From: Ohtaekwangia koreensis
Lineage (GTDB): Bacteria > Bacteroidota > Bacteroidia > Cytophagales > Cyclobacteriaceae
Assembly: GCF_900167975.1 (NCBI RefSeq)
Contig: NZ_FUZU01000001.1
Location: 1,398,580-1,462,579, forward strand
DNA length: 64,000 nucleotides
Direction of reading: 5' to 3'
Under the pieces are notes generated by a model that saw only the letters and a list, made by a program, of their open reading frames with translations, made no database searches and was not told where the DNA came from. Each line of letters begins with the position of its first letter. Positions within the stretch are counted from its first letter, which is position 1. Of the stretch, positions 6,977 through 56,474 are shown in pieces. The translations under genes were made by a program, and so were the position numbers.

Positions 6977-7000
6977 AATGATATAGGTGTTGACGAGGTT

Positions 7001-40491: not shown

Positions 40492-42264
40492 CTATAATTT
40501 GGGTGTAAACCAAAGGAATCCGAAAGCCAATAGCAACGCCAGGAAGAAAATCAGCGGAGATACAGATTTATATACTGTATGCTTAGTATTCATTGATTTC
40601 GTTTCAGTGACACTATATTGTTTTGAAACGCTGATCCGGTTGCTTGCCTCGAGCGATTTCCAGGAATCCTTCTTCGATATATAGTATGGGAGTTGTACGG
40701 AGTCCGGGGTGGAGAGTGTATGCCATCCCGGATTACCGGCCCAGGTCGTGGCATGCCAAACGTCATCGATGCGTATATCTTCCATTAGCGGCAGATGTAT
40801 ACTATCATCTTGCAGAGTAAGGTTATTTCCGTTTGTAATTAATTCAATGTCGATTGGCTGATCCGGATATACCGGAAATGTATTTGTGATAGTTAGAGTA
40901 CTGTTTACAGTTTTACTTCTGGAGATTTGTTCCAGTACCGGTGACCAGATTTTGCTATACCCTAATGAATCGCCTCGCAGAATAAGTGGATATGTACTTT
41001 GCAGCAACTGGAATCCTGCTTTACCAAAACCTTTATTGGTAAAGCCCGATAACACTCCACGCTTATTTTGAATGATGGCTTGAAGTGAAGCTGCATCGGA
41101 AAAAATGAAAGGCGCAACGGAAAGGGTACTGCTTTGCTTACCCGATAGTAACAGGTGCGTTGTGTCACTTTTTAAAGGAATCGTTTTCCAGGGAAAGAGT
41201 TTATGAAAGTTCCGATTGGTAACGGAAGTCTCCTGCACCAGAACGATAACGCCCAGTCCTTCTGCCACGGCATCTTCAAGTGCCTTTATCTCGGTTGGCG
41301 GCAGGGCCTGCAATGTCTCGGTATCGAGTATAACCAGATCAAAAACTGATAGCGTTCTCTTCGCCAGCTGTGTGATGTTAACTGCATCATGATTTATATA
41401 CTCGTATCGGAAAATGTTTTTGGATAACTGTGAGCGCAGCACAACGCTATGATTCTTCTTTGAAAGAAAACTTTTCAGGTACTGGGTTTCAAACGAAGGC
41501 TGCTGCTGAAGGAAGAGTGTTTTATAGGGAGTGCCTTCATTGACTATCACCGGAAAATCCTCTGTTAAGGTTTGCCCGTTTTGTTTTGATGTGAGCTGGT
41601 ATATAAACTTGCCGGCTTGCTTGGGGATAAACGTTAATGCAAAAGAGCGATTGCCCGTACCGGCGGTTAGCGTTACAGAATCTTCCACACCTGCCGGGGA
41701 ACGAAGGGAAAGCGTTACCGGGTTTTCTTTCAGGGTATATATACCGTTAATTTTACTTTCACGGTTTGTGAAAATATTCTCCGGAATATGAAGCGCTGTA
41801 ACTCCGGAAGGAAGCTGTCCTGGAATATAGTGGACGGAGGAATCGTTGATCTGCTTCCACGCAAAGGCTGGTAATCCATTACCAAGGATAGCTCTGACTT
41901 CATTCGCGATGGGAGCTATACCGTTTAGCGATGCAATTCTTTTGGAATGCATATAGGGCATGGCATCTGCCAGATGGAAGAATTGTAAGTTTTTATTTAT
42001 AGCGAAAAGACTATCGGCTTGTTTCTTCTCGTAACCTTCTGTGAGCAATACAACGCTGAGTTCTTCGTCTGCCTTTAGGGCGGGCCTTAAGAACAATCCG
42101 ATGAGCGCGGCTATCAATACGACCACGGCAATCAGTCGTAAAACCTTGAAGCGCATGTTTCGCTTATACTCCTTCCAGAGTAAATATATACCGAGCAGAA
42201 TCAGTATCCCCGGAAACCACCAGCCGTCCAGTACAGGTTGCGTCACCATGGTATGATCACTCAT
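40492..42264 (-). CDS. Large membrane protein, last gene of the MoxR/BatA operon
   Basis: 590 residues. Two N-terminal helices (about 13-28 and 38-60) and one C-terminal helix (about 568-587) frame a long extracytoplasmic part. That part contains a glutamine-amidotransferase-like core without clear catalytic residues (VFDLVILDTETLQALPPTEIKALEDAVAEGLGVIVLVQ) and Ig-like stretches (IDIELITNGNNL, KAGKFIYQLTSKQ). Function unknown; homologues end the same operon in related genomes. The start overlaps the DUF4175 stop by four bases. Confidence 0.65.
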   Translation of the reverse strand: MSDHTMVTQPVLDGWWFPGILILLGIYLLWKEYKRNMRFKVLRLIAVVVLIAALIGLFLRPALKADEELSVVLLTEGYEKKQADSLFAINKNLQFFHLADAMPYMHSKRIASLNGIAPIANEVRAILGNGLPAFAWKQINDSSVHYIPGQLPSGVTALHIPENIFTNRESKINGIYTLKENPVTLSLRSPAGVEDSVTLTAGTGNRSFALTFIPKQAGKFIYQLTSKQNGQTLTEDFPVIVNEGTPYKTLFLQQQPSFETQYLKSFLSKKNHSVVLRSQLSKNIFRYEYINHDAVNITQLAKRTLSVFDLVILDTETLQALPPTEIKALEDAVAEGLGVIVLVQETSVTNRNFHKLFPWKTIPLKSDTTHLLLSGKQSSTLSVAPFIFSDAASLQAIIQNKRGVLSGFTNKGFGKAGFQLLQSTYPLILRGDSLGYSKIWSPVLEQISRSKTVNSTLTITNTFPVYPDQPIDIELITNGNNLTLQDDSIHLPLMEDIRIDDVWHATTWAGNPGWHTLSTPDSVQLPYYISKKDSWKSLEASNRISVSKQYSVTETKSMNTKHTVYKSVSPLIFFLALLLAFGFLWFTPKL

Positions 42265-44522
42265 TGTCGCTCAAGATTTTTAATGAAGTCACGATCGAGT
42301 GCATGCAGCGTTTGCGTTGCAGAAGAAGGTGAAGCAGGAGCAAGCGGCAAAGCTCTCCATAAAGAAATTTGTATCTCTTCCAGTGCCGCGCGTTGTTCTT
42401 CCGGCTTTAATTCATTTTCAGTCAGTGCGCGGATACGCGATAAGCTTTTCAAATATAGCCCGGGCTGTGCAATCGCCAATAGTCCAAGCTCCTGGCCAGC
42501 CAGCGATAATTTTTTCTGTAAAGCTTTATCTATAGCAGTATGATCGGATGCCATCGTCCATGCTATAGCTTGCAACGCACTGCGAATGGCTGGGTAATTC
42601 TCCTTTGCTGTCGAGCTACCTTTTGCCGTTGCATTCTTTACTTCGCTCAAATCTCCTGTCATGCGCTTCTCTTCTTTAATAGGAGGTGGATCAAATCCCG
42701 TGCGATGTACATATATACGTGAGTCCTGGCTGATCTCTTTCAATAGCTTCAATGCTTTATACTGAAACGGTAATGATTTTTCCGGTTCATATAGTCGCAG
42801 GTGAAGTTCGGCATCCCACATAATGGTAAGCGCAGCTTTTAATTTAGCACGAATAGATTGTGTGAAGAACGTAGCCTCTTCTTCACTGTCGTGTTCATGC
42901 ACAAACCCGGCAGGTATACCGTTCTTGTCTTCGCCTTCTTTCGCAGCGTGTTGATGTTCGTGATCACCTTTTTTCTCTTGTACCAGGTTGTGCTCGTTTT
43001 CGGTATCATGCACATGCCCATACTTCTTCGCTATATCTTCTTCTTCATGGTCATGATCTTCTTCAGCAGGGTTTTCCTGTGGCCCTATACCGGATTCAAA
43101 TTCTTCTCCTAAAAATTCTCCATAGCGTAATCTTAATACTTTTTGATCGTACCCTAATTCATTACTTTTAGATTGAAAGGTTTCTTTCGAGATTTGTTTT
43201 TTCTCTTTCAGTAATTTCTCGGAATCAATAATGATTTGCCGCTGACTGCGGAAATAATCAGGCATCAAATCAACACCAAGGCCATCGTCTACTACGGTTT
43301 CCTGTTGCGTAGTATCGCGCAGGGAAATGAAGTATGTTTCAGTACGTGTACGGTTCGAAAGTGGTCGTTTGGTATCGAAAGCCACCACGTAAAAGTATAG
43401 CTCATCTCCGGGCTCCATGCCCAGCTTTAGGAGATCCAGCCTTCGCGTTGCATCTATATGTTTACCCGAAATAGTAGAAGGATTTTCAAAGAAGAGTTTA
43501 TCTTCCCTGAATTTAACCGATTCACCACTTCCCTTGCTTACCGTGGCTATAATGTGCGCATTGTCCAATCCATAATCGTCCGCGAGTGTAGCGTATACAT
43601 CAACGGTAGGCCTGCTGGTAAATTCAAGTTCGGTGAATTGATTCAGCTTGTTGATGGTAACAACCGGAGCTATATCTTTAATGACCTCCAGCTTATAGAA
43701 ATCAGAATGCTTGGTTTCACCTTGCGCAGTTGTCCATGCAAGCTGATAGAATCCGGTTTCACTAATCGTTCGCTTCAAAGTATAGGATCCCTGCTCAGAC
43801 TTCAAGGGTATATTTTGTTTTCCTGAAAAGATAAGCGCGGGATTTTTCACATCGGCTGTAAATTCTATCTGCCATTCTATTGTGCTTCCTTCGGCAAACG
43901 TCAATGACCATGCGCGAGTCGTTTGTGTTTTTAGCTTTGTATAGGGCGGAGGCGTTATGGTGATTTGCGTGCCTTTCACTTGTGCAGGAGCATATGGTGT
44001 CGCTCCTGCTGTAGAAGATGGTCCGGCCTGTATGGATCTTTCAGAAATATGCGACACAAAAGGAGCGAAAGACATAAGTGCAACGGATGCTGCTATACTG
44101 ATGATAAATATACCTATAGCGTGTTGCAGACGATGGGGGAGTCGTATAGCAGGGTAAAGTGCTTCGAAGGCAGTTGTGGTCTTTATCTTTTGAAGTCGTT
44201 GCAGGGTAGAAAGCCCGTCATCATCTTTCAGAAGAAGATCACTGCTATTTTGAAGCGTACTAAAATGCTGATTGAGGTATCGAGTAATGTTATGTTCATC
44301 CAGTTGAAATAAATGAAGCTGTTGGCATCGGTATAAAAACAAGAGTATACCACCCGTTAGCGCGAGTATAATAGAACCCGCCACCGGAACTTGAAACGAG
44401 TAGGGTATGACAAACGAGACGGATGCGAGTGCCAACGCTAACAGGAACGCTTCGCTCATGCGAATTGCTTTATACTTTCGCGTAAGCTGGTGAAGGTGAT
44501 ATCGTGCCTGTATATCGCTCAT
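42261..44522 (-). CDS. DUF4175-family membrane protein with a His/Asp/Glu-rich insert
   Basis: 753 residues. Two N-terminal hydrophobic segments (about 26-42 and 45-66), another near 130-150, then a large extracytoplasmic beta-rich region and a helical C-terminal region. At about 480-552 there is a striking cluster of His with Asp and Glu (DHDHEEED, HVHDTENEH, DHEHQHAAKEGED, HEHDSEEEA). It could bind divalent metals such as zinc; no canonical motif is met. DUF4175 genes sit with BatA/DUF58/MoxR in many Bacteroidota; function unknown. It overlaps both neighbours by four bases. Confidence 0.75.
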   Translation of the reverse strand: MSDIQARYHLHQLTRKYKAIRMSEAFLLALALASVSFVIPYSFQVPVAGSIILALTGGILLFLYRCQQLHLFQLDEHNITRYLNQHFSTLQNSSDLLLKDDDGLSTLQRLQKIKTTTAFEALYPAIRLPHRLQHAIGIFIISIAASVALMSFAPFVSHISERSIQAGPSSTAGATPYAPAQVKGTQITITPPPYTKLKTQTTRAWSLTFAEGSTIEWQIEFTADVKNPALIFSGKQNIPLKSEQGSYTLKRTISETGFYQLAWTTAQGETKHSDFYKLEVIKDIAPVVTINKLNQFTELEFTSRPTVDVYATLADDYGLDNAHIIATVSKGSGESVKFREDKLFFENPSTISGKHIDATRRLDLLKLGMEPGDELYFYVVAFDTKRPLSNRTRTETYFISLRDTTQQETVVDDGLGVDLMPDYFRSQRQIIIDSEKLLKEKKQISKETFQSKSNELGYDQKVLRLRYGEFLGEEFESGIGPQENPAEEDHDHEEEDIAKKYGHVHDTENEHNLVQEKKGDHEHQHAAKEGEDKNGIPAGFVHEHDSEEEATFFTQSIRAKLKAALTIMWDAELHLRLYEPEKSLPFQYKALKLLKEISQDSRIYVHRTGFDPPPIKEEKRMTGDLSEVKNATAKGSSTAKENYPAIRSALQAIAWTMASDHTAIDKALQKKLSLAGQELGLLAIAQPGLYLKSLSRIRALTENELKPEEQRAALEEIQISLWRALPLAPASPSSATQTLHALDRDFIKNLERQ

Positions 44523-45787
44523 TGATTCCGATGATAAGCAAGTAATCTTTCCGTTAATACCATGAATGCGAGTAGTATTATTAAATACTTGTCCAAGGGA
44601 GTGGTTACTGCTGCACGTTTCAATACAGGAGTATATTTCTCAGACGATGCGCTAAGGAATTCTTCTGGTAAAATTCTTTTATCGGCCTTCGTGGCAATCG
44701 CTATAGTCTCAGGATTGTTTAACATTACGGAAGCCAATCGCGTGGTGAGATGATGTTGTAAAGCAATGTCTATCGTTAGTCGAGATGTGAGCAGCCATTG
44801 TTGAAATGGACTTTGCGGACCTTCTTGCAATAGTATATCGGTCGAGGCTGCGTTGTTTTTATAAGTGATCTTGTGGCATGCGTCTTTGTAAGTCATTTTC
44901 TTTTCCGATAACCAGACCAGCCAATCCGCAGAGGTATATTTAAAATTTTCTGCCGGAGTAATGTGTATGGCGATTGGTGCTGCCGGAATTTTCCGGATGG
45001 CTTTTAACGATGCGGTCACAATGTTGGCGTCAAACTGAAAAGCCTTGTCGTAAGCGATGATCACGTGCAATGTATCGGTGGATCCAAGTTGTGCGGTTGC
45101 TCCCTCAGCTGTAACCGTTCTCTGCTCCGGCGTTATAGCAGTCTGTTGATAGGTATAGCGCATCTGTGAACCATCACTTTTAGCGAGCCGAACCGTGGCG
45201 GAGTCAGATGTATACCGTTGCGCCAGAACTATACTTTGCCCAGGCTTAGCGTCAACGGTGATCCATTTAAGTGTAGGGGGTACTGGTATACGTTCACCTG
45301 TAAAGTCTTTAAGGTGAGAGTGTGAGATCACTACTATATCTTGTATGACTTTTGCTTTGAGCTGCTCGATCAATGGCCAGTAATTTGCTGTATTCACAGC
45401 CGTAGTATCTTCTCTGACAGGAAAGTCAAAGGCCATAAAATGTGTTTCATAACCTGCCGCAGTAAGACTATCGGTTAATGAATTAAGTCTCGCATCTTTT
45501 TGAATACCGGGTTCAATAACCAACCATTTTGATGAAGCTGCCGGTATATTTAATACCTGAAGACCTGCAAGTAATAGTACAGTTACGATAATGAGTATAC
45601 ATCGTATCACGAGCAGGAGTACTTCATTTAGTTTAAGCGCGCGAAATTGTTTTGTGTTGGATTCATCGAGGTGACGGAGACTTCCTATATAGATCACTTT
45701 CCCTTCCTTGCGGCTCAGCAAATGTATACCGATGGGGATTGCTAACCCACTCAGTGCCCAAAGCCATATCGGATTCGCGAATTGCAT
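44519..45787 (-). CDS. BatA-domain membrane protein
   Basis: 422 residues. The N-terminus MQFANPIWLWALSGLAIPIGIHLLSRKEGK is the aerotolerance-regulator BatA N-terminal domain, followed by IGSLRHL and a second helix near 58-80. The middle is extracytoplasmic with no von Willebrand A domain, and a last helix is near 398-415. Bacteroidota members of this family are paired with DUF58, MoxR and DUF4175 proteins. A structural role in a membrane complex is likely. Its ATG shares one base with the DUF58 stop codon (TGATG). Confidence 0.8.
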   Translation of the reverse strand: MQFANPIWLWALSGLAIPIGIHLLSRKEGKVIYIGSLRHLDESNTKQFRALKLNEVLLLVIRCILIIVTVLLLAGLQVLNIPAASSKWLVIEPGIQKDARLNSLTDSLTAAGYETHFMAFDFPVREDTTAVNTANYWPLIEQLKAKVIQDIVVISHSHLKDFTGERIPVPPTLKWITVDAKPGQSIVLAQRYTSDSATVRLAKSDGSQMRYTYQQTAITPEQRTVTAEGATAQLGSTDTLHVIIAYDKAFQFDANIVTASLKAIRKIPAAPIAIHITPAENFKYTSADWLVWLSEKKMTYKDACHKITYKNNAASTDILLQEGPQSPFQQWLLTSRLTIDIALQHHLTTRLASVMLNNPETIAIATKADKRILPEEFLSASSEKYTPVLKRAAVTTPLDKYLIILLAFMVLTERLLAYHRNQ

Positions 45788-46683
45788 CAGCGGGCCAGGG
45801 TTTTTCGGATCTTTAAAAAATTTCGCAAGGTAGTCTCAAACGAATCGTTGAGGTTTATCAATTCATAGCTGATCTGTTTTTCCAACATCCAGTTTCTTGA
45901 ATGTGCGATCCACTGTTGTACGCGCTCGCTATATTGTTTTTGCTGCGTAGTCGTTTCTACTTTCGAACGTACTTTGGTTTCAAGGTCTTCAAATGTAAAA
46001 GAACCTTTAAAGCCCAGGTCGGTTTCCTGACGACCCATCAGATGAAAAACGATCACTTCATTTCGAACGGTTTTCAATCGTGCTATAAATTGTAGCAGAT
46101 CGTTCTCTTCATCATATAGATCAGTTATGAAGATGATCATTTCTTTTCCATGATGATCATATAGATGTTCGAGGCCGTTTCCTTTTTTCCAGGTGCCTTC
46201 ACTTTTTGCTGTAGCGAGTATATGGAGAAAGCGCATGAACTGCTGTTGTTCAAAACGCGGATGTACTTCATGAATTTCTTTTTCGTTCACTGTAAATAAA
46301 CCAAAGGCATCGCTTTGTTTACGGGCAAGATATGCGAGTGCCGCGATCATTACCTTGGCGTACATAAATTTACTCAGCCCGTCTTCGGTATACATCATGG
46401 AATGACTGGCATCGAGCATGAACTTTACGGTGATGTTCGTTTCAATATCTGCCTGGCGGATAAAATATCGCCCTGAACGCGCATACATTTTCCAGTCAAG
46501 CATACGCAAGTCATCACCGGGTTCATAACTTCTATACTGACTGAATTCCTGTCCCGTTCCTACAGCCTGACTTTTATTACTGCCACTCATGAACCCTTCC
46601 ACGATAACACGTGCAATCAACTCCAACCCGTTCACGGTGTTGATCACTTCCGGTTTCAGTAAAGATCGTATCTGTGAATTCAT
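45787..46683 (-). CDS. DUF58 domain protein (VWA-like)
   Basis: 298 residues from ATG 46683; a longer frame would overlap the moxR gene. The DUF58 region carries the conserved RSYEPGDDLRMLDWKMYARSGRYFIRQ (about 50-75), followed by a von Willebrand A-like stretch with a MIDAS-type DASHS (about 88-94, FMLDASHSMMY), TDLYDEEND and GSFTFEDL. DUF58 proteins are partners of MoxR ATPases and are thought to help the remodelling of substrate proteins. It lies 13 bases after moxR. Confidence 0.88.
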   Translation of the reverse strand: MNSQIRSLLKPEVINTVNGLELIARVIVEGFMSGSNKSQAVGTGQEFSQYRSYEPGDDLRMLDWKMYARSGRYFIRQADIETNITVKFMLDASHSMMYTEDGLSKFMYAKVMIAALAYLARKQSDAFGLFTVNEKEIHEVHPRFEQQQFMRFLHILATAKSEGTWKKGNGLEHLYDHHGKEMIIFITDLYDEENDLLQFIARLKTVRNEVIVFHLMGRQETDLGFKGSFTFEDLETKVRSKVETTTQQKQYSERVQQWIAHSRNWMLEKQISYELINLNDSFETTLRNFLKIRKTLAR

Positions 46684-46696
46684 GCGTAGCGGATCG

Positions 46697-47701
46697 CTAT
46701 ATAGATTTAGCTTGTGTCTGTGCGTGTTCGAGTAAATGCTTTGTGATATTATCAGAAGTAACACCTTCGGCCTCTGCACGGAAGTTCATGAGAATCCGGT
46801 GGCGTAATACCGGATAGGCTACACGTTCTATATCTTCCAGTGTTACAGCAAAATTACCATGCAGTAATGCGCGCGCTTTTGCCGTCATGATCATGGCCTG
46901 ACCGGCACGTGGACCTGCGCCCCAGCGCACCCAATCTTTTACATAGGGAGTGCTTGAATCAGGACGTGTTAATCGTACTATACTGCTTACGCGCTCGATG
47001 AGATCGCGGCTGATATGTACTTCGCGTACGAGTTCCTGTGCTTCTTTGATCTCGCTTCCTTCCAGTACTTTATTTATTTTATTTGCTTTCTTACCCGTAG
47101 TACTTTCAAGTATAGCGGTTTCTTCTTCTGCAGTAGGGTAGCCGATCTTTATATATAGCAGGAAGCGGTCGAGCTGTGCTTCCGGTAATGGAAATGTACC
47201 GGCTTGCTCGATCGGATTTTGAGTAGCAAGTATAAAGAATGGTTTTTCTAATGGATACGTTACACCACCATACGTTACTGAAAACTCTTGCATGGCTTCG
47301 AGTAAAGCCGATTGTGTTTTCGGTGAAGTACGGTTGATCTCATCGGCCAGAATTATATTCGCGAAGAGTGGACCTTTATTGAATTTAAAAAAGCGTTTGC
47401 CTGTAGTATGATCTTCTTCCAGGATCTCGGTTCCTATAATATCGGAAGGCATCAGGTCGGGAGTAAACTGAATGCGTCTGAACGGGAGTTCTATTGCTTC
47501 CGACAAAGATCGGATCATCAACGTTTTTGCCAATCCTGGAACGCCTTCCAGTAAAGCATGTCCACCTGCGAGAAAAGTAATCAGTAACTGATCAACAGTT
47601 TCGGATTGCCCGACAATGACTTTACCGATTTCCTGCTTCAACGCATCGAGCTTTTCAATTATACTCTGTACAGATTGCTCTACTTCTTTTAATTCTTTCA
47701 T
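46697..47701 (-). CDS. MoxR-family AAA+ ATPase
   Basis: 334 residues from ATG 47701. AAA+ motifs: Walker A in LLEGVPGLAKT, Walker B in ANIILADEINRTSPKTQSALLEAMQE, sensor 1 in FFILATQNPIEQAGTFPLPEAQLDRF (a MoxR hallmark) and sensor 2 in the C-terminal lid (WGAGPRAGQAM, ATPase lid domain 240-330). It acts as a chaperone that assembles or activates metal- or cofactor-containing proteins, often with a VWA partner; here the partner is the DUF58 protein just downstream. Substrate unknown. Confidence 0.92.
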   Translation of the reverse strand: MKELKEVEQSVQSIIEKLDALKQEIGKVIVGQSETVDQLLITFLAGGHALLEGVPGLAKTLMIRSLSEAIELPFRRIQFTPDLMPSDIIGTEILEEDHTTGKRFFKFNKGPLFANIILADEINRTSPKTQSALLEAMQEFSVTYGGVTYPLEKPFFILATQNPIEQAGTFPLPEAQLDRFLLYIKIGYPTAEEETAILESTTGKKANKINKVLEGSEIKEAQELVREVHISRDLIERVSSIVRLTRPDSSTPYVKDWVRWGAGPRAGQAMIMTAKARALLHGNFAVTLEDIERVAYPVLRHRILMNFRAEAEGVTSDNITKHLLEHAQTQAKSI

Positions 47702-47797
47702 AAAATATAGTTTATGCTTTAAGTCTGAATTTAAGTCCAAGGCTTAACGCAGAAATTTTTAAGCTGATCTGATTCCCAAATCCCGATCTATAGTATA

Positions 47798-48421
47798 TCA
47801 TCGCATCATCGCATACATAACAATGTTTACACTGAAGCGGGTGTTGTCAATTTTATAGAAACGTTTATTGCGGAAGTCGTAATCCCATTCACATCCATAA
47901 TCTTTGTTGCTATAGAGTATGCCAATCTTTCCATTGATCTCCACAGCCTTCAGGTAATCGTGAACGATATCATCGCCCCAGCCATTTAATTCCTGTGATG
48001 TAGTAGGAGGGCCCTCGAAGTTAAAGAACATGGAATAGATCGGATGGTTGTTCGGAATCTTCTTCAGTGCACTGGCACCGAAAATTACTTCCATCTGCGA
48101 TTCAAACGACTTGGCAAAAAGTCCATCGATGTCATGATTACAATCATCCACAAATACAAACCCACCGTTGCGTACATACTTTTCAAAGTTAGCGCGCTCG
48201 GCTGCAGTAAACTCTACCAGTTTATGTCCACTCAAATAACAGAACGGGCAGCTAAAGATCTTATCACCGCTCAGCGGAATAATATTCTCCTGTGTATCTA
48301 CTTTCAGCGTGGTATACTCAATCAGAGAATTCAATACGTTAGACGGCATGCGCTGGTCTACATCCCAGTCACCGGATTCATATTGAAGGCGTGTAAAAAA
48401 AAACTTGTTTGCCGCGGACAT
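47798..48421 (-). CDS. DUF4159 domain protein
   Basis: 207 residues. The DUF4159 core starts FFTRLQYESGDWDVDQRMPSNVLNSLIEYTTLKVD and includes YLSGHK, FEKYVRNGGFVFVDDCNHD and HPIYSMFFNF. It has a GATase-like fold that lacks a clear catalytic Cys in the usual place. No signal peptide is visible, although some homologues carry one. Function unknown. It lies in the same direction between the TldD/TldE genes and moxR (96 bases to moxR) and probably starts the MoxR operon, since the terminator at 48511-48540 lies upstream. Confidence 0.8.
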   Translation of the reverse strand: MSAANKFFFTRLQYESGDWDVDQRMPSNVLNSLIEYTTLKVDTQENIIPLSGDKIFSCPFCYLSGHKLVEFTAAERANFEKYVRNGGFVFVDDCNHDIDGLFAKSFESQMEVIFGASALKKIPNNHPIYSMFFNFEGPPTTSQELNGWGDDIVHDYLKAVEINGKIGILYSNKDYGCEWDYDFRNKRFYKIDNTRFSVNIVMYAMMR

Positions 48422-48510: not shown

Positions 48511-48540
48511 AAGAAGTCCCTCGATAACAAGGGACTTCTT
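48511..48540 (-). terminator. Terminator of the second TldD/TldE operon
   Basis: Perfect 11-base arms AAGAAGTCCCT / AGGGACTTCTT with an 8-base loop, 23 bases past the tldE-like stop codon, in the minus direction. Confidence 0.8.
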
Positions 48541-48562: not shown

Positions 48563-49897
48563 CTAGATGGCGTCAGATAAACTCGTGAATGTAAAGTCAC
48601 GGATTTTCATAGGCGGAATCAGGTAATTATTATTGGATTCTACACTCACCGTACGTTCTGCTGCCCCTAGTTCTTCTAGGTTATTCAACATGATGATGGG
48701 GCTTTCGTTAAAGCGGAAGTTCTTGATCGGATATTGAATCTTGCCATTCTCGATGTAAAATGTTCCATCGCGAGTCAATCCTGTTAACAGCAAGGTTTGC
48801 GGATCAACATCGCGAATATACCACAGCCTCGTAACGAGAATACCTTTCTTGGTACCCGCTATCAGATCCTGCAATGATTTGGTTCCGCCTTCCATGATAA
48901 AGCTGTTCGGGCTTGGTATAGCTTTTACATTTTTCTTCTGTGCCCAATAGCGTGAATAAGAAAAGTTCTTTACAACGCCTTTCTCGATCCATGTGGTTTT
49001 TTCATGCGGGCGTCCGTCACCATTCCAGGTGCTGGTAGGAAGTTCAGGATTCAGCGGATCTGAATATATAGTTACACGCTCGTCCATCAGCTTTTCTCCA
49101 AGCCTTGTTTTTCCACCGGCTTTGCTAAATGAACTACGACCTTCATCCGCCTGGCGTGCATCGAGATCGAAAAGGATTCTTTCCAGCAACACAGCCGCAG
49201 CCGCGGGCTCCAGGATCACAGTATATTTACCCGGCTCGATCGCTTTGGCCGCAGCAGACTTCATACTCTTCTGTGTAGCAATTTCAGTTGCTGCTTTCGT
49301 ATCGAGTTTTGTGAAATCATTATAGCCGCGTGTCGCATAGCCTGATCCTTTACCATCGGCTGTGCGTACCGTAATCGAAAAGTTTACATTGGTGGCCGTG
49401 TTATAGGCAAACAATCCTTTCGAATTCATCATCGCTGAAAATGCTTTGTTGTCTTCGAGGAAGCCTGCGGCAACTTGTTTGTTATCTTTTGATACCTGCA
49501 GACTTTGCGCTACAGCATCGGTACGTTGCTTGGGAGTAATGGAAGCAGTTGCCTGAACGAATGTTATAGGCTCAGCATATTTCTGCGGTTCAAGAAAAGG
49601 CACGAACTCTGGATTTTCCGGAGCAAGTTGTGCGAGTTCTTCCGAACGCTTTACTACTTTTTGCAAGGAGACGTCATCAAACTCGTTGATGGTGGCAGTT
49701 CCTAATTTTTTACCAAAGGCTGATGATACTATTAATGTACTCTGACTTATGTTACCACTGGTAGAAACCGAATTGCGTGCATACCGGATGTTGCCGCTAT
49801 CACCGCCATATATATTCACTTCGCATTGTTCTGCTTTGGAATAGCTCAGTACTTTTTTTAGTAAAGCCTGTGCTTCATCTTTTGTAAGTATAGGCAT
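48563..49897 (-). CDS. TldE/PmbA-like peptidase partner protein 1
   Basis: 444 residues of the PmbA_TldD fold. It begins MPILTKDEAQALLKKVLSYSKAEQCEVNIYGGDSGNIRYARNSVSTSG, with no signal peptide and no zinc motif (no HExxxH), as in TldE, the non-catalytic partner. Middle and C-terminal PmbA_TldD domains are intact (IVSSAFGKKLGTATINEFDD, SRYWAQKKNVKAIP, FRFNESPIIMLNNLEELG). It lies six bases downstream of the TldD-like gene and is co-translated with it. If the pair forms a heterodimer like E. coli TldD/TldE, this subunit must travel with a Tat-signal-bearing partner (see findings). Confidence 0.85.
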   Translation of the reverse strand: MPILTKDEAQALLKKVLSYSKAEQCEVNIYGGDSGNIRYARNSVSTSGNISQSTLIVSSAFGKKLGTATINEFDDVSLQKVVKRSEELAQLAPENPEFVPFLEPQKYAEPITFVQATASITPKQRTDAVAQSLQVSKDNKQVAAGFLEDNKAFSAMMNSKGLFAYNTATNVNFSITVRTADGKGSGYATRGYNDFTKLDTKAATEIATQKSMKSAAAKAIEPGKYTVILEPAAAAVLLERILFDLDARQADEGRSSFSKAGGKTRLGEKLMDERVTIYSDPLNPELPTSTWNGDGRPHEKTTWIEKGVVKNFSYSRYWAQKKNVKAIPSPNSFIMEGGTKSLQDLIAGTKKGILVTRLWYIRDVDPQTLLLTGLTRDGTFYIENGKIQYPIKNFRFNESPIIMLNNLEELGAAERTVSVESNNNYLIPPMKIRDFTFTSLSDAI

Positions 49898-49903
49898 AGT
49901 ATA

Positions 49904-51541
49904 TTATCCGATGTTGCGTGATGTGTTAATAACGTTTACTCCTTTAAAATGCGTAGTAGCAGAGCCGTGTGATACAGCGCTGGACTGCGATGGCTGACCT
50001 TTACCGTCAAAGAAAGATCCTCCCAAACGATAATCTGATTCATCGGCAGTACCGGCACATGAATTCCAGAACTCATGTGTGTTTGCCTGGTAGGCCACAT
50101 CTTTCAGCATGCCTGCAATTTTTCCGTTCTTGATCTCATAGTATAACTGCCCGCCAAACTGGAAATTATAGCGCTGCTGATCGATGGAGAAAGATCCATC
50201 GCCAATGATATATATACCCTTCTCTACATTTTTGATAAGGTCATCAACACTGCGTTTTTCTTTGCTTGCCTGTAGCGATACATTCGGCATGCGCTGGAAT
50301 TGCACGCTGCTCCAGCTATCGGCATAGCAGCAACCTTGTGAAGCTGTCAGCCCGATGATGTGTGCCTGATCACGTATAGCCTGGTAATTTACAAGTATAC
50401 CATCTTTCACAAGATCCCAACGGCCACACTGTACGCCTTCGTCATCATACCCTACAGCACCGAGTGAACCGACTTGCTGTTTGTCTGCAAAGAGGTTTAC
50501 ATTTTTATTTCCGAAGTTGAATTTTTTAGATTCCCACTTATCAAGCGTTAAGAAACTGGTACCGGCAAAGTTTGCTTCATAGCCGAGCACGCGATCCAGT
50601 TCAGTAGGGTGACCTACAGATTCGTGAATGGTTAACCACAAATGAGAAGGATCCAGGATCAGATCATATTTACCTGCTTCAACAGATTTAGCTTTTAATT
50701 TTTCGCCTGCCTGTTGTGCACCGGCACGCGCATCTTCAATCATATCATAGCGGCCTTTATATAGTGTAGTAGGACCTTTGATCTTGTCTTGCGGACGAGC
50801 GTTGAGATATTCATAGCCCATTCCCATAGGGGCGCTGAGGGCATTACGTGTTTCAAATTTTCCGGTAGCAGCATCGATCTTCGTGATGAAGAACGTTGGC
50901 CAGATGCGATGTATATCCTGATCGATATAGGAGCCATCCGTAGATGCAAAATATTTCTGTTCATTTACAGTGAACAAAAATGAATTTATATAGTTAGCTC
51001 CTCCTTTGATGGCAGCATCATTTACGCTGAGTAGCAGATCTACTTTTTCCTTTAGAGGAACTTCGAATGAATTTTTTTCAATGGGAGCTTTCCAGCTTAC
51101 TTCACCGTATCCTTTTTGAGAAACAAGTTGTACGGGTTCGCTTAGCAGGCGCGAATTTTCTTTCGCTATAGCGACTGCGAGTTCTGCAGTTTTAGCAATG
51201 CTGTCTTTATCCAGTTTATCAGTAGCAGCAAAGCCCCATCCGCCATTGGCGATTACGCGTACTCCCATTCCGTACGACTCCGTGTTTACAATGTTCTCTA
51301 CTTTGTCTTCACGTGTAATAACAAATTGATTCAGGTAACGCCCGATGCGTACATCGGTATAGGTTGCACCTTTCGATCGTGCTGCGTTGAGTGCTACATC
51401 TGCCATTTGTTTCTTCTGCGCGACATCAATGGTTTCCAATGCCCGCTCGGGAGGAATGGCTTTCCCGAAAGACGGAATTCCTGCAAGCACTGCGGCCGAT
51501 GCGCCCATGCCTGCCAGGTGAATAAAATCTCTTCGTTTCAT
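49904..51541 (-). CDS. TldD-like zinc peptidase with Tat signal 1
   Basis: 545 residues. N-terminal Tat-type signal MKRRDFIHLAGMGASAAVLA (twin Arg then a hydrophobic stretch). The PmbA_TldD N-domain follows and the zinc site HESVGHPTELDRVLG is near residue 305 (HExxxH, typical TldD). A Cys-pair region SQGCCYADSW stands further on, with a C-terminal DRD. TldD of E. coli is cytoplasmic and, with TldE, trims peptides and matures microcin B17; here the signal implies work in the periplasm. It is transcribed from a promoter near 51613 and followed by its TldE partner. Confidence 0.85.
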   Translation of the reverse strand: MKRRDFIHLAGMGASAAVLAGIPSFGKAIPPERALETIDVAQKKQMADVALNAARSKGATYTDVRIGRYLNQFVITREDKVENIVNTESYGMGVRVIANGGWGFAATDKLDKDSIAKTAELAVAIAKENSRLLSEPVQLVSQKGYGEVSWKAPIEKNSFEVPLKEKVDLLLSVNDAAIKGGANYINSFLFTVNEQKYFASTDGSYIDQDIHRIWPTFFITKIDAATGKFETRNALSAPMGMGYEYLNARPQDKIKGPTTLYKGRYDMIEDARAGAQQAGEKLKAKSVEAGKYDLILDPSHLWLTIHESVGHPTELDRVLGYEANFAGTSFLTLDKWESKKFNFGNKNVNLFADKQQVGSLGAVGYDDEGVQCGRWDLVKDGILVNYQAIRDQAHIIGLTASQGCCYADSWSSVQFQRMPNVSLQASKEKRSVDDLIKNVEKGIYIIGDGSFSIDQQRYNFQFGGQLYYEIKNGKIAGMLKDVAYQANTHEFWNSCAGTADESDYRLGGSFFDGKGQPSQSSAVSHGSATTHFKGVNVINTSRNIG

Positions 51542-51612
51542 AAGGGTTGTTATTGGTTAATGAGCTTGATCGTCAATTCTGTTTTAAGATAGAGAATACT
51601 TTACTGCTTATG

Positions 51613-51620
51613 CAAACGTA
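51613..51620 (-). promoter_or_regulatory. Promoter core of the second TldD/TldE operon
   Basis: TACGTTTG on the minus strand, exact TAnnTTTG, about 72 bases before the TldD start; the upstream TTTG is not evident. Confidence 0.45.
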
Positions 51621-51722
51621 TAGAGCCATAAAGAGTTATTATACCGCAAGCTTCGTGATTTTTGTGCTGTTAAATTCGACATCACAGATATACAGGTAAA
51701 GATCACAGACCGGTATAATCAA

Positions 51723-51752
51723 AGAGAGGCTGTTTGCAGTAACAGCCTCTCT
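51723..51752 (-). terminator. Terminator of the first TldD/TldE operon
   Basis: Perfect 12-base arms AGAGAGGCTGTT / AACAGCCTCTCT with a 6-base loop, 18 bases past the tldE-like stop codon. It separates the two TldD/TldE transcripts. Confidence 0.85.
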
Positions 51753-51770
51753 GGTTTTTATAAATATATA

Positions 51771-53105
51771 CTAAACAGCGTCTGACAGACTGCTGAACGT
51801 AAAGTCGCGGATCTTCATGTACGGTATATATACATTGGTTCCACCTTCGCTGGTTACGGCACGTTTCTGCTGTCCTAGTGTTTCCAGGTTGTTCAGCATG
51901 ATGATCGGACTTTCGTTGAAACGGAAGTTCTTGATCGGATGCTTGATCTTACCATTCTCAATGTAGAAAGTTCCATCGCGAGTCAAACCAGTATATAGCA
52001 ACGTTTGTGGATCTACGGGACGTATATACCAGAAGCGTGTTACCAGTATACCTTTCTTGGTATCCTTGATCATGTCTTCCAACGATGCACTTCCTCCATC
52101 CATAATAGCATTGCCCGGGAACGGAACGGCTTCTACATTTTTCTGTGTTGCCCAATACCGATCGTAGATCAGGTTTGCAACGGCACCATTACGGATCAAA
52201 TCCATTTTCTTGCGTGCAAGCCCATCACCAGACCATGGTGATGCGGGTACATCTTCACTCCATGGATCAGTATATATATTCACGCGTTCATCTACCAGTT
52301 TTTCACCAAGCTTCGTTCCTCCGCCTTTTTTGGAAAGAAAACTTCTGCCTTCATCGGCCTGGCGCGCATTCATGTTCAGCATCAGGCGAATCAAATCTGC
52401 TCCTGCGGAAGGCTCCAGGATCACAGTATATTTACCGGGTTCAATAGCCTTGGCGTTGCGTGACATCAACGCTTTGTCAATGGCTATCTTCGAAACGTCT
52501 GCAGCATTCAGTTTGCTTACATCATTTAAATCGGCAGCAGCCCAACCTGAACCGGTGCCATCATTCGAGCGCATGGTAACAGTGAAGTCAACGCTTGTTG
52601 CTTTGTTATAGGCATAGAGACCTTTGCTGGTCATCATGCAAGAGAATCCGCGGCTGTCTTCAAGATAGCCGGCAGCAGTAACATCTTTCGCTGCAGCGGG
52701 ATTTATACTATCAGCAGCAGCCTGTGCTCTGAAGTCAGGAGTAATATTAGCAGTGGCTTCCGAAAAAGTTTTTGAATCAGGGCCATAGTTTTGCTGTGGC
52801 AATGGATCCATGAACTCAGGATTCTCAGGTGCAAGCTTGGCCAGTTCTTCCGAGCGTCTTACTACTTTTTCGAGTGATGCATCATCGAATTCGTTGATGG
52901 TAGCAGAGCCGGATTTTTTACCGTAATACGATTGTACACCTAATACAATGTTGCTATTCTCGCCAGCGGTTGAAACGCTGTTACGTGCATAGCGAATGTT
53001 GCCTCTGTCGTTGCCGTTGAGCGTTACCGAGCAACCATCGGCTTTGGATAAGCTGATCACTTTCTCCAATATCTTTTTAGCTTCTTCTTTTGAAAGTATG
53101 GCCAT
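51771..53105 (-). CDS. TldE/PmbA-like peptidase partner protein 2
   Basis: 444 residues, the same length as protein 1 and colinear with it (MAILSKEEAKKILEKVISLSKADGCSVTLNGNDRGNIRYARNSVSTAG; FRFNESPIIMLNNLETLG). No signal peptide, no zinc motif. It closes the three-gene operon TldD-TldD-TldE, 73 bases after the second TldD. The duplication with protein 1 looks old: much of the middle has diverged. It would be the common partner of the two TldD paralogs upstream, or of one of them. Confidence 0.85.
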   Translation of the reverse strand: MAILSKEEAKKILEKVISLSKADGCSVTLNGNDRGNIRYARNSVSTAGENSNIVLGVQSYYGKKSGSATINEFDDASLEKVVRRSEELAKLAPENPEFMDPLPQQNYGPDSKTFSEATANITPDFRAQAAADSINPAAAKDVTAAGYLEDSRGFSCMMTSKGLYAYNKATSVDFTVTMRSNDGTGSGWAAADLNDVSKLNAADVSKIAIDKALMSRNAKAIEPGKYTVILEPSAGADLIRLMLNMNARQADEGRSFLSKKGGGTKLGEKLVDERVNIYTDPWSEDVPASPWSGDGLARKKMDLIRNGAVANLIYDRYWATQKNVEAVPFPGNAIMDGGSASLEDMIKDTKKGILVTRFWYIRPVDPQTLLYTGLTRDGTFYIENGKIKHPIKNFRFNESPIIMLNNLETLGQQKRAVTSEGGTNVYIPYMKIRDFTFSSLSDAV

Positions 53106-53178
53106 GGGATTTACGATTTAGTTTAGGATTGTGGTTGATGATGTGATGGTATAGATCATGATCATAAACCGAAATGAG

Positions 53179-54819
53179 TTATATAGTTCGTCCTGTATTG
53201 ATTACGCTGACACCGTTGAAACGTGTGGTAGCCGATCCGTGCGATACTGCATTCGACTGGCTCGGTTGTCCCTTGCCATCGTTGAAGGCTCCGTTTAACC
53301 GGTAGTCACGTTCATCACAGATCTGAACACAGGAATTCCAGAACTCCTGTGAGTTGGCCTGGTAGGCTACATCTTTCAGCATGCCTGCGATCTTGCCATT
53401 CTTGATTTCAAAGAATAGGACACCTCCGAACTGGAAGTTATAGCGTTGCTGATCGATGGAGAACGAACCATCTTTCACGATATATATACCTTTGTCGACA
53501 TTGGAGATCATCTGCTCCGGTGTAACCTGCTCCTTGCCTGGTTTCAAAGATATATTTGCCATGCGCTGAAACTGTACATCACTCCAGCTCTGCGAGTAGC
53601 AGCAACCATGTGACTCTTTCTGGTCAATGATATTTACCTGGTCGCGAATCGCCTGATAATTTACCAGTGTTCCATCTTTAATGATATCCCACGATTTACA
53701 TTTCACGCCTTCATCATCATAAGCCACAGCACCCAGAGAACCCGGCTGCGTTTTATCGGCTACGAAGTTTACAATTTTGCTGCCTGCGTTAAACTTACCG
53801 GATTTCCATTTGTCAAGTGTAAGATAACTTGTGCCTGCATAGTTGGCTTCATATCCGAGTACACGATCTAATTCAGTAGGGTGTCCTACAGATTCGTGAA
53901 TGGTAAGCCACATGTGTGATGGTTCAAGCACAAGATCATATTTACCCGGCTCTACTGATTTCGCTGCGATAATTTGCTTGGCTTGCTCAGCTGCCATACC
54001 GGCATCTTCCACTATATCATAAGATTTATTATATAGTATAATTCCTCCGGGACCTTCAATTTTATCTTCAGGCCGTGCATCCAGGTACTCATATCCCATA
54101 CCAACGGGAGCGCTGAAGGCCGCACGATTCTTGAATTGTCCGGAAGCGCGGTCGATCATCGTAACGGTAAAGCTGGGCCATGTACGATGTACATCCTGAT
54201 CTATATAGGAACCTTCCGTTGAAGCAAAGTACTTTTGCTCATTCACAAGGAACATCAGACTATTTACGAAGCTTGCGCCTTTTTCCATTGCTTTGGCATT
54301 CGCATTCATCAGCAGATCAACTTTTTCCTTTACCGGAACTTCGAAGCCATTCTTCTTTATAGGAGTCTTCCAACTCACTTCTCCATACGATGGAGTAGGA
54401 GCGAGCTTTACGGGTTCCTTTTGAAATTTGGAATTTGCTTTGGCAATGATCGCAGCACGTTCTGCAGTTTTCTTCATGCCATCGGTAGTAACATTATTCG
54501 TTGCTGCAAATCCCCATGTACCATTTACAATGACGCGAATGCCAACACCAAATGATTCTGTGTTGACTATATTTTGTACTTTCTTTTCACGCGTGATTAC
54601 AAACTGATTCAGGTATCGCCCGATGCGAACATCGGCATATGTAGCACCGAATGATTTAGCAGTGTTCAAGGCTACATCTGCGAGTTGCTTTTTCTGCTTT
54701 GCATCCAGCAAAGGCTCGAGCATGCGAGCCGGGTCTACTGGATTTGAGAATGCAGATATAGGGAGGAGCATGGCGCCTGCACCCATTCCGGCTAGTTGCA
54801 TAAAATCTCTTCTCTTCAT
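53179..54819 (-). CDS. TldD-like zinc peptidase with Tat signal 2
   Basis: 546 residues. Signal MKRRDFMQLAGMGAGAMLLP (twin Arg); zinc motif HESVGHPTELDRVLGYEAN near residue 308; HGCCYSQSW further on; a PmbA_TldD C-domain ending INTGRTI. It is closer to TldD 3 than to TldD 1 (shared AKANSKFQKEPVKLAP..., WKTPIKKN, VPVKEKVDLL). It is the second gene of its operon, 11 bases after TldD 3. Why one operon carries two TldD for one TldE is unclear; they may give homo- or hetero-oligomers with different specificity. Confidence 0.85.
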   Translation of the reverse strand: MKRRDFMQLAGMGAGAMLLPISAFSNPVDPARMLEPLLDAKQKKQLADVALNTAKSFGATYADVRIGRYLNQFVITREKKVQNIVNTESFGVGIRVIVNGTWGFAATNNVTTDGMKKTAERAAIIAKANSKFQKEPVKLAPTPSYGEVSWKTPIKKNGFEVPVKEKVDLLMNANAKAMEKGASFVNSLMFLVNEQKYFASTEGSYIDQDVHRTWPSFTVTMIDRASGQFKNRAAFSAPVGMGYEYLDARPEDKIEGPGGIILYNKSYDIVEDAGMAAEQAKQIIAAKSVEPGKYDLVLEPSHMWLTIHESVGHPTELDRVLGYEANYAGTSYLTLDKWKSGKFNAGSKIVNFVADKTQPGSLGAVAYDDEGVKCKSWDIIKDGTLVNYQAIRDQVNIIDQKESHGCCYSQSWSDVQFQRMANISLKPGKEQVTPEQMISNVDKGIYIVKDGSFSIDQQRYNFQFGGVLFFEIKNGKIAGMLKDVAYQANSQEFWNSCVQICDERDYRLNGAFNDGKGQPSQSNAVSHGSATTRFNGVSVINTGRTI

Positions 54820-54830
54820 GGGCTATTGGG

Positions 54831-56474
54831 TTAGATGGTTCTGCCTGTGTTAATAACATTTACGCCATTGAAGCGAGTCGTTGCACTACCGTGAGATACT
54901 GCACTTACCTGTGAGGGTTGTCCTTTGCCATCGAAGAAAGATCCAAAGAGACGGTAATCTTTTTCATCGCAGATTTTTGCGCAGCTGTTCCAGAATTCCT
55001 GTGTATTCGATTGATAGGCTACATCGTTGAGCATGCCTGCAATCTGACCATTCTTAATTTCGTAGAACACCGTGCCACCGAACTGAAAATTATAGCGTTG
55101 CTGATCGATGGAGAAGGAACCACGACCGGCTATATATATACCTTTCTCTACATCTTTGATCATTTGTTCCGGACTATAAGGATCTTTGCCGGGAGCAAGC
55201 GATACGTTGGGCATGCGTTGAAACTGCACATCGCTCCAGCTCTGCGAATAGCAACAGCCATGCGATTCATTTTGTCCCAGCATATGTACTTGATCGCGGA
55301 TAGCCTGTACGTTGACGAAGATGCCGTCTTTGATCAGATCCCAGCGTCTTGATTTTACGCCTTCATCATCGTATCCTACAGCACCGAGCGAACCGGGTTG
55401 TTGCTTGTCAGCAAAAATGTTTACCAGGTTGCTTCCGTATTTAAAGTTACCGGATTTTAATTTTTCCAATGAGGCGAAACTGGTTCCGGCATAATTCGCT
55501 TCATATCCGAGGATACGATCAAGCTCCAACGGGTGGCCTACTGATTCGTGAATAGTAAGTCCCAAGTGATTAGGTTCAAGCACGAGATCATATTTACCAG
55601 GCTCAACCGATTTAGAAGTTGTAATCATTTCCTTTGCCTGCTTGGCAGCAATGGCAGCATCTTCTACTATATCATAACTGTTGCGATATAGCATGGTGCC
55701 TGCTATACCTTTTACTTTATCTTCAGCCTTCGGGATCATGTATTCATATCCCATCCCCATAGGAGCGCTCAATGCATCGCGCGTTTTAAATTTACCCGAA
55801 GCACGATCTATAGCGGATACGGTAAAGGTTGGCCAGATGCGATGTATATCCTGATCTATATAGGAGCCTTCTGTAGAAGCAAAGTATTTTTGCTCATTGA
55901 TCTGGAAGAGATTGGAGTTTACAAAGCTGGCACCATTCTGAAGTGCCGCAGCATTTGCTTTCAGAAGTAAATCTGTTTTCTCAGAGACCGGAACTTCAAA
56001 AGCATTTTTTTGAATGGGTGTCTTCCACGTTACTTCCCCGTGGCCTTTAACAGGCGCGAGTCTTACCGGCTCTTTCTGAAATTTTGAATTTGCTTTTGCT
56101 ATAGCAACGGCTTGTTGCGTGGCTTTACGAATGCCATCGGCCGTAACCAGGTTGGTAGCTGCAAATCCCCACGTACCATTTGCGATAACACGAATCCCTG
56201 CACCGAACGATTCAGTGTTTACAAGATTCTGTACTTTGTTTTCGCGCGTGGTAATAAACTGATTGAGGTATCGTCCGATACGGATGTCGGCATACGTTGC
56301 ACCCGCGGCCTTCGCTGTATTAAGCGCTACATCTGCCAATTGTTTTTTTTGTGATGTATCCAGGGGTGAATCCAACATTGCCTCGACCGGAACCGGATTA
56401 CCCAAGGTAGAGAATGGTAGTAGCATCCCGCCAATACCAAGCCCTGCGAGTTGAACAAAATCTCGTCTTTTCAA
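54831..56474 (-). CDS. TldD-like zinc peptidase with Tat signal 3
   Basis: 547 residues. The reading frame opens with TTG at 56474 (leading to KRRDFVQLAGLGIGGMLLP); no ATG gives the twin-arginine signal, so the non-standard start is the best choice. Zinc motif HESVGHPLELDRILG, Cys-pair HGCCYSQSW, C-domain as in the other two. It heads the operon TldD3-TldD2-TldE2. A weak start codon could lower its amount relative to TldD 2. Confidence 0.83.
   Translation of the reverse strand: MKRRDFVQLAGLGIGGMLLPFSTLGNPVPVEAMLDSPLDTSQKKQLADVALNTAKAAGATYADIRIGRYLNQFITTRENKVQNLVNTESFGAGIRVIANGTWGFAATNLVTADGIRKATQQAVAIAKANSKFQKEPVRLAPVKGHGEVTWKTPIQKNAFEVPVSEKTDLLLKANAAALQNGASFVNSNLFQINEQKYFASTEGSYIDQDIHRIWPTFTVSAIDRASGKFKTRDALSAPMGMGYEYMIPKAEDKVKGIAGTMLYRNSYDIVEDAAIAAKQAKEMITTSKSVEPGKYDLVLEPNHLGLTIHESVGHPLELDRILGYEANYAGTSFASLEKLKSGNFKYGSNLVNIFADKQQPGSLGAVGYDDEGVKSRRWDLIKDGIFVNVQAIRDQVHMLGQNESHGCCYSQSWSDVQFQRMPNVSLAPGKDPYSPEQMIKDVEKGIYIAGRGSFSIDQQRYNFQFGGTVFYEIKNGQIAGMLNDVAYQSNTQEFWNSCAKICDEKDYRLFGSFFDGKGQPSQVSAVSHGSATTRFNGVNVINTGRTI

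Follow-up and report, generated by a model that had tools for sequence, protein, structure and literature searches.

The peptidase pair TldD/TldE of Escherichia coli is known for microcin maturation, and a small number of redox enzymes are known to bring signal-less proteins through the Tat pathway as hitchhikers. E. coli TldD and TldE (PmbA) form a metalloprotease heterodimer (PDB 5NJ5 series) with an HExxxH motif on TldD only, and this TldD has no leader at its N terminus. As described in PMC5810440, the heterodimer buries about 2,600 Å2, both subunits are required for activity, the TldD homodimer is unstable, and a narrow channel takes only completely unfolded peptides, which are cut N-terminally. 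Tat hitchhiking is exemplified by hydrogenases, formate dehydrogenases and aldehyde oxidoreductase (PMC4273604, PMC10924467), and HybO and PaoA take their partners, which lack signals, out in this way (PMC4273604). The literature search revealed no report of a TldD exported through Tat; PMC11508158 and PMC8102297 mention TldD and Tat separately in the portions of text available.

The window, i.e., the whole stretch of 64,000 nucleotides that was analyzed, encodes TldD3 (54831..56474; 547 aa, TTG start), TldD2 (53179..54819; 546 aa), TldE2 (51771..53105; 444 aa), TldD1 (49904..51541; 545 aa) and TldE1 (48563..49897; 444 aa) in this order; each of these genes lies on the minus strand. The three TldDs open with MKRRDF and an uncharged stretch and contain HESVGH (minus strand; 55533..55550 in TldD3, 53881..53898 in TldD2 and 50609..50626 in TldD1). 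The TldEs begin with MAILSKEEA and MPILTKDEA and possess neither a signal nor the metal motif. Thus, the three TldD-like proteins with KRRDF, a hydrophobic stretch and HESVGH and the two signal-less TldE-like proteins of the original prediction were confirmed from the open reading frames of the window. The proposed arrangement in two operons, TldD3-TldD2-TldE2 and TldD1-TldE1, was also recovered, with a hairpin on the minus strand 3' of TldE2 (51723..51752, terminator-like) and another 3' of TldE1 (48511..48540). Their folding energies were -20.3 and -20.6 kcal/mol, respectively, and none of 200 shuffles was equally stable; the T tails of both are weak, and a consensus terminator scan reported the hairpin after TldE2, not that after TldE1. 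A promoter scan was uninformative, with 17 candidates as compared to 21.3 expected.

All five proteins contain three PmbA_TldD domains at or above the Pfam gathering scores, with the first domain of TldE1 lying exactly at the cut-off of 20.9 bits. The best scores for the NCBIfam models PRK10735 (TldD; 70.9 vs. a cut-off of 513 bits) and PRK11040 (PmbA; 49.3 vs. 438 bits) were far too low, and the window proteins are thus relatives, not equivalogs, of E. coli TldD and PmbA. The AlphaFold2 model of TldD2 (pLDDT of 88) matched E. coli TldD chains best in the PDB, and that of TldE2 (pLDDT of 94) matched TldE/PmbA structures. TldE2 thus shows the TldD fold without HExxxH and is encoded beside a TldD gene. 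Among deduplicated relatives of the main family, HExxGH was present in 170 of 174 TldDs, the misses that were traced being HESVAH in locus L170 and frames cut at the locus end, and in none of 142 TldEs. In 25/25 main-family alignment rows, Asp (within DGKGQ or DGKGE) takes the place of Cys454, the third metal ligand of the E. coli enzyme; this includes the putative ligand in DGKGQ of all three window TldDs. PMC5810440 anticipated Asp at this place in some relatives. Oxidation-proofing as an explanation of the exchange was dropped because a second Tat-type family retains Cys (four alignment rows) and a TldD with a Sec-type signal from the same genome has FCG, read by eye, at seemingly the same place.

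The Tat-type leaders of the window TldDs (minus strand) comprise about residues 1-26 of TldD3 (56397..56474; MKRRDFVQLAGLGIGGMLLPFSTLGN, ending at a putative cleavage site), about residues 1-26 of TldD2 (54742..54819) and about residues 1-27 of TldD1 (51461..51541). In the TldD2 model, residues 1-23 lie outside the folded domain with pLDDT below 50. The curated Tat model TIGR01409 (cut-off of 16.7 bits) was passed by TldD2 only, with 17.3 and 21.5 bits in two runs, while TldD1 (15.7 bits) and TldD3 (14.1 bits) scored slightly below. A script based on motif and hydropathy rules, rather than a trained predictor, was used to call signals. By this script, 172 of the 174 deduplicated TldDs carry a Tat-type leader (167 RR and 5 RK), and the two that were not called still encode one, with a weak hydrophobic core in one case and in a shifted frame in the other. 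The counts for TldDs (174) and TldEs (142) omit frames running off the locus end, matches starting beyond model position 60 and matches below 300 bits (below 400 bits for the second family), and lone TldD-like proteins are thus absent from them. Such lone proteins elsewhere in the phylum (e.g., L206-L208 and L213) show no leader, and the notion that every TldD is exported was rejected.

The original prediction was exposed to two objections, namely that relatives might lack the twin arginine and that translation might start downstream of KRRDF; both were countered by the sequences. Among 182 distinct TldDs with an intact front, R-R-x-[FLIVM] was found in 175 and R-K-x-[FLIVM] in six, including both TldD copies of genome G204, while the remaining one (L047) has neither in frame and encodes KRRDF in another frame. 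In 175 distinct TldDs selected by R[RK]x[FLIVM], where Arg at the first place is given by construction and the 182 TldDs provide the unbiased count, six different codons encode this Arg, and Phe occupies the fourth place in 175/175 although the pattern permitted L, I, V and M. Because of the six Arg codons and the invariant Phe, the motif is regarded as conserved on the protein level, with translation beginning ahead of it; in 152/153 TldDs, RR is preceded by a start codon at a distance of two codons. The h-region is weakly hydrophobic, as in Tat substrates (12-residue median hydropathy of 1.47, n = 120), and low hydrophobicity of this region separates Tat from Sec leaders (PMC10924467). The motif RRx[FLIVM] alone is unspecific, since 6/24 and 4/21 Sec-type proteins contain it close to the N terminus as well. 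The gene for TatC is present in the genome studied and in 197/198 genomes of the phylum, and its co-occurrence with TldD was discarded as uninformative for this reason.

In comparison, none of the 142 main-family TldEs carries a recognisable signal, and the gene immediately downstream of TldD is TldE in 112/112 cases. Of 96 relatives searched, 17 possess no PF19289 members other than a single TldD and a single TldE (G136, with a second, contig-broken TldD, was left out), and a leaderless TldD-family partner for TldE was found neither in these 17 nor in the genome studied. In eight loci with at least two TldD/TldE pairs, operon partners matched each other's tree better than swapped partners did (r of 0.874 vs. 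a mean of 0.455; reached by 5 of 2000 shuffles), and tandem co-duplication by itself could yield such paired trees. The second family, which is only 21-26% identical to the main family, shows the same distribution, with a Tat-type leader in 10/12 TldDs (two lack any leader) and a signal in 0/11 TldEs. Thus, provided that the subunits form a complex as in E. coli, there is one signal per complex and a signal-less partner. The predicted export tag on one subunit is not a local oddity, since the pattern recurs among relatives in the Bacteroidota.

A third TldD/TldE family, found in the genome studied (G000 C6:3191k-3195k) and in 19/198 genomes of the phylum, shares the C-terminal domain and HExxxH on one partner with the window proteins, but bears a Sec-type signal on each partner (23/23 TldDs and 21/21 TldEs), as scored for Sec-type signals only, with a hydropathy threshold of 1.8, which the lowest values of 1.81 and 1.86 barely exceed. 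The leaders of the pair in the genome studied reached hydropathies of 2.58 and 2.38, determined over a longer stretch, as compared to the median of 1.47 in main-family TldDs. The two genes are mostly adjacent; since they lie on different contigs in four genomes, the pair is not always tandem. A natural fusion in G182 retains the first signal only (hydropathy of at most 0.65 at the junction vs. 2.57 at the N terminus). This contrast of two signals per Sec-type pair and one in the fusion is the best evidence for the proposed hitchhiking. Together with the single signal of each pair in both Tat-type families and the missing leaderless partner, it lends good comparative support to the original prediction that TldE is carried out by TldD, and export of the assembled pair through Tat with TldE as hitchhiker is highly probable.

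Alternatively, TldD alone may be exported to form a periplasmic homodimer, with TldE left in the cytoplasm, where it would form an inactive homodimer or join another partner. This would fit the lack of a signal on TldE, and PMC5810440 refers to TldE homodimers and to a Sulfolobus TldD homodimer reported to be active alone. It appears unlikely, however, since Sec-type TldE bears its own signal in 21/21 cases, none of the 112 TldEs lacks a neighbouring TldD, no other TldD-family partner for TldE exists in the 17 relatives, and E. coli TldD is inactive alone, its homodimer being unstable (PMC5810440).

A leader that serves as an uncleaved anchor or has no part in export, with the pair active at the cytoplasmic face as in E. 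coli, is more improbable still. A strict AxA cleavage site is present in just 43/175 TldD leaders, downstream in-frame start codons exist in 174/175 TldDs, and two of the three window leaders stay under the TIGR01409 cut-off. By contrast, the motif is maintained across the six Arg codons, the distant second family retains its RR leader in 10 of 12 TldDs, h-region hydrophobicity is as low as marks Tat leaders, and in 107/120 TldDs a loosely defined small-x-small site is present after the h-region, a count without a chance control. That TldE leaves by some unrelated route that needs no signal and joins TldD only in the periplasm is hardly credible, as nothing was found in its favour, two distant families obey the one-signal rule and Sec-type TldE uses a normal signal.

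In the preferred reading, i.e., joint export of the pair, each TldD would fold, bind metal and assemble with TldE while still in the cytoplasm. The twin-arginine leader of TldD would take the complete shell, with a mass of about 105 kDa as estimated from the chain lengths, through Tat, and signal-less TldE would be carried along. The periplasmic heterodimer may then act as a metallopeptidase that, like the E. coli enzyme, trims unfolded peptides N-terminally. Trimming of folded peptides, as originally proposed, is not supported, since only completely unfolded ones gain access to the E. coli enzyme (PMC5810440). No clue to the TldD/TldE substrate was found among the neighbouring genes.

On the minus strand, the cluster is followed by genes for a DUF4159 protein (47798..48421), a MoxR-type AAA+ ATPase (46697..47740), a DUF58 protein (45787..46779), a protein with a BatA N-terminal domain (44519..45787) and two proteins without a Pfam match (753 aa, 42261..44522; 590 aa, 40492..42264). 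In 80 TldD loci, compared up to 6 kb past the TldD match, relatives of the first five occur 52, 51, 50, 45 and 18 times, respectively; weak relatives of the 590-aa protein (24-25% identity) lie near TldD in L169, L170 and L172. This conserved neighbourhood and the Sec-type pair of the same genome were absent from the original prediction. The DUF4159 protein has no leader from its sole start codon; the script flagged an RK motif for this gene, but in codons preceding that start. DUF4159 proteins encoded beside TldE lack a recognisable leader in 55/56 cases and have a Tat-like RK leader in one, and eight further genes could extend at least 13 residues upstream given a TTG-type start. A free-standing DUF4159 paralogue carries a Sec-type signal in all 30 loci read. 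No paper on DUF4159 was found in the literature search. The DUF4159 protein is a possible second Tat passenger. As a tentative and rather doubtful extension, TldD might carry both TldE and signal-less DUF4159, with MoxR/DUF58 acting ahead of export as a dedicated chaperone in metal loading or in assembly of the peptidase.

If joint export is true, hitchhiking extends to a widespread peptidase, periplasmic TldD/TldE gains a role distinct from microcin maturation, and export doubles as quality control, since only the closed TldD/TldE shell with its promiscuous active site hidden would leave the cytoplasm. Bacteroides thetaiotaomicron is a genetically tractable gut commensal. Its BT3649 (PDB 1VPB, listed as 'putative modulator of DNA gyrase') is a TldE of the second family, matched by the TldE of locus L203 at 2.4e-226, and the partner TldD of L203 has the leader MDRRNFLKTGG. 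With the Sec-type sister family as a ready control and this solved TldE structure from a tractable organism, the hitchhiker idea is directly testable.

Compared to the E. coli heterodimer, the window proteins share the three Pfam domains, the fold and the HExxxH motif on TldD only, but differ by the Tat-type leader of TldD and by Asp in place of Cys454. The putative role of MoxR/DUF58 may be likened to those of HybE and PaoD, which serve or are predicted to serve redox cargo. E. coli HybOC and PaoABC resemble TldD/TldE in having the signal on one subunit and a signal-less partner, and the estimated size of TldD/TldE is below the 135 kDa of PaoABC (PMC4273604). HybOC and PaoABC are cofactor-rich oxidoreductases with dedicated chaperones (PMC4273604), whereas TldD/TldE is a peptidase with putative export.

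The block at 48563-56474 of the window (minus strand) encodes TldD3, TldD2 and TldE2, a hairpin, and then TldD1 and TldE1, with a second hairpin just past the TldE1 end; the three TldDs, the two TldEs, their order and the hairpin after each set are present as in the original prediction. The three PmbA/TldD Pfam domains were found in all five proteins. Since their NCBIfam TldD and PmbA scores were far below the cut-offs, the window proteins are relatives of the E. coli pair and not equivalogs. The AlphaFold2 model of TldD2 (pLDDT 88) matched E. coli TldD chains best in the PDB, and that of TldE2 (pLDDT 94) matched TldE/PmbA structures. Residues 1-23 of the TldD2 model had a pLDDT below 50 and did not form part of the domain, which is what one expects of a leader. 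Near the C terminus of TldD1, TldD2 and TldD3, an Asp aligns with the third metal ligand of the E. coli protein, Cys454 (25/25 alignment rows of the main family, i.e., the window-type pairs).

A scan of named genomes matched at least 598 stretches, at least 577 of them encoding a relative, and the best 80 were kept. Together with a scan of 98 relatives and further single loci, these contained 154 distinct TldDs, 153 of which carried R-R-x-[FLIVM], with a start codon two codons upstream of RR in 152 of the 153. The twin arginine of Tat signals thus recurs in relatives, and a start downstream of KRRDF, raised earlier as an objection, is not borne out by the sequence. The sole exception, L047, encodes KRRDF in another frame; at 6001-7637, leader and body lie in separate frames, through assembly error or genuine damage. 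In the same sample, the motif was absent from 123/123 TldEs. The first possible start lay at most three residues from the conserved first residue in 119 of them, leaving no room for a signal, and the other four had at most 12 extra residues upstream. When later loci were included, 174 TldDs comprised 167 with RR, five with RK and two with neither call (L047 and a gene of L170 with RK but a weak core), and no signal was called in 142 TldEs. An independent tally across all loci gave 175 RR, six RK, one neither and four front-truncated TldDs. The six RK leaders, which include both copies in the relative G204, are of uncertain strength. Further weak points are that TIGR01409 was passed by TldD2 alone among the window TldDs, and that TatC, present in 197/198 genomes, does not discriminate. 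TTG or GTG served as start codon in 68/175 TldDs of relatives, and TldE2 of G049 has a long glycine-rich insert near mid-protein (L022 3608-4543).

In the window, the best 80 of the at least 577 named loci and nine fetched regions, TldD stood directly upstream of TldE in 112/112 cases, with a median gap of 29 bases. The next gene after 141 TldDs was TldE (112), another TldD (27), neither (1) or the locus end (1). Within the DNA read, 81 sources showed the gene orders DE (55), DDEDE (14), DDE (8) and others (4). A tree built from 119 TldDs placed the first and second TldDs of the window in well-supported clades whose members nearly all share their operon position; the third fell into a clade of ten same-position genes. 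In the eight loci with at least two full pairs, TldD and TldE distances correlated with r 0.874 for true partners versus a mean of 0.455 for partners shuffled within the locus; 5/2000 shuffles, which may keep the original order, reached 0.874. Joint duplication alone could explain these paired distances.

The PF19289 members of the own genome are the five window proteins and a Sec-type pair. Among 96 relatives, 33 had any member, 29 of these with a main-family TldD, and 18 of the 29 had exactly two matches, whose lengths were those of a TldE and a TldD. G136, among these 18, carries an extra TldD split across contig ends. In the remaining 17, to judge from gene content, a cytoplasmic TldE would be without any leaderless TldD-family partner.

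Two further families offer a natural contrast. A second one from other Bacteroidota, with 21-26% identity to TldD2, had an RR leader on 10/12 TldDs and a signal-less TldE in 11/11 cases. Two of its TldDs (L201 in G406, L205 in G321) lack any leader and are perhaps cytoplasmic. The third, Sec-type family carried a signal on both members (TldD 23/23, TldE 21/21) and is also encoded in the own genome at C6:3191k-3195k (L005 490-2304 and L008 598-2268; HEIFGHRIE motif). Its core hydropathy (12-residue medians) was 2.58 and 2.38 versus 1.47 for Tat-type leaders, the Sec-type stretch scanned being longer. R-R-x-[FLIVM] also occurred in 6/24 and 4/21 Sec-type N-terminal regions; therefore, the motif by itself proves little. 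The two Sec-type genes lay on different contigs in four genomes. A natural Sec-type TldD-TldE fusion of 1153 residues in one frame (L235, G182 C5:148134-151331) has a single signal, with a hydropathy peak of 0.65 at the junction versus 2.57 at the N terminus. Sec threads unfolded chains, and Tat transports folded complexes. With two signals in the Sec pair, one in the fusion and one in the Tat pair, signals thus track the chains that cross separately. This contrast in signal number is the chief argument that TldE would cross together with TldD.

Next to this block in the window lies the gene run DUF4159-MoxR-DUF58-BatA-(753 aa)-(590 aa) (40492-48421), with a hairpin between TldE1 and DUF4159. 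Relatives of the run occur near TldD/TldE in several Bacteroidota classes; among the best 80 of at least 577 loci, DUF4159 was found in 52, MoxR in 51, DUF58 in 50 and BatA in 45. Among the 20 genomes whose main-family TldD match exceeded 600 bits, 15 had at least two DUF4159 matches and five had one; only five of the remaining genomes listed for DUF4159 had two or more. Free-standing DUF4159 paralogues carried a Sec-type signal in 30/30 loci (those scoring highest among 145 matching genomes), and the TldE-adjoining copy had no recognisable leader in 55/56. The other copy, from G204, has a Tat-like RK leader (NRKEFLKK; L165 14210-14932), coinciding with RK instead of RR on both TldDs there. 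On a bold and unproven reading, DUF4159 might be a second passenger, or MoxR/DUF58 a dedicated chaperone.

According to PMC5810440, the E. coli pair makes up a closed shell with the metal on TldD, both subunits are required for activity, the TldD homodimer is unstable, and entry is restricted to completely unfolded peptides, which are cut N-terminally. Folded peptides, the substrate originally suggested, conflict with this. Tat hitchhiking, in which a signal-less protein is carried by a tagged partner, is described in PMC4273604 and PMC10924467 for HybOC and PaoABC, export being blocked when the partner is missing. Applied here, these precedents suggest that TldD and TldE would first assemble, then be exported together, and finally trim unfolded peptides in the periplasm. 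In MdoD, residues R3, R4 and F6 of the Tat motif were observed bound to TatC (PMC13323110), and they are numbered identically in the MKRRDF of the window leaders.
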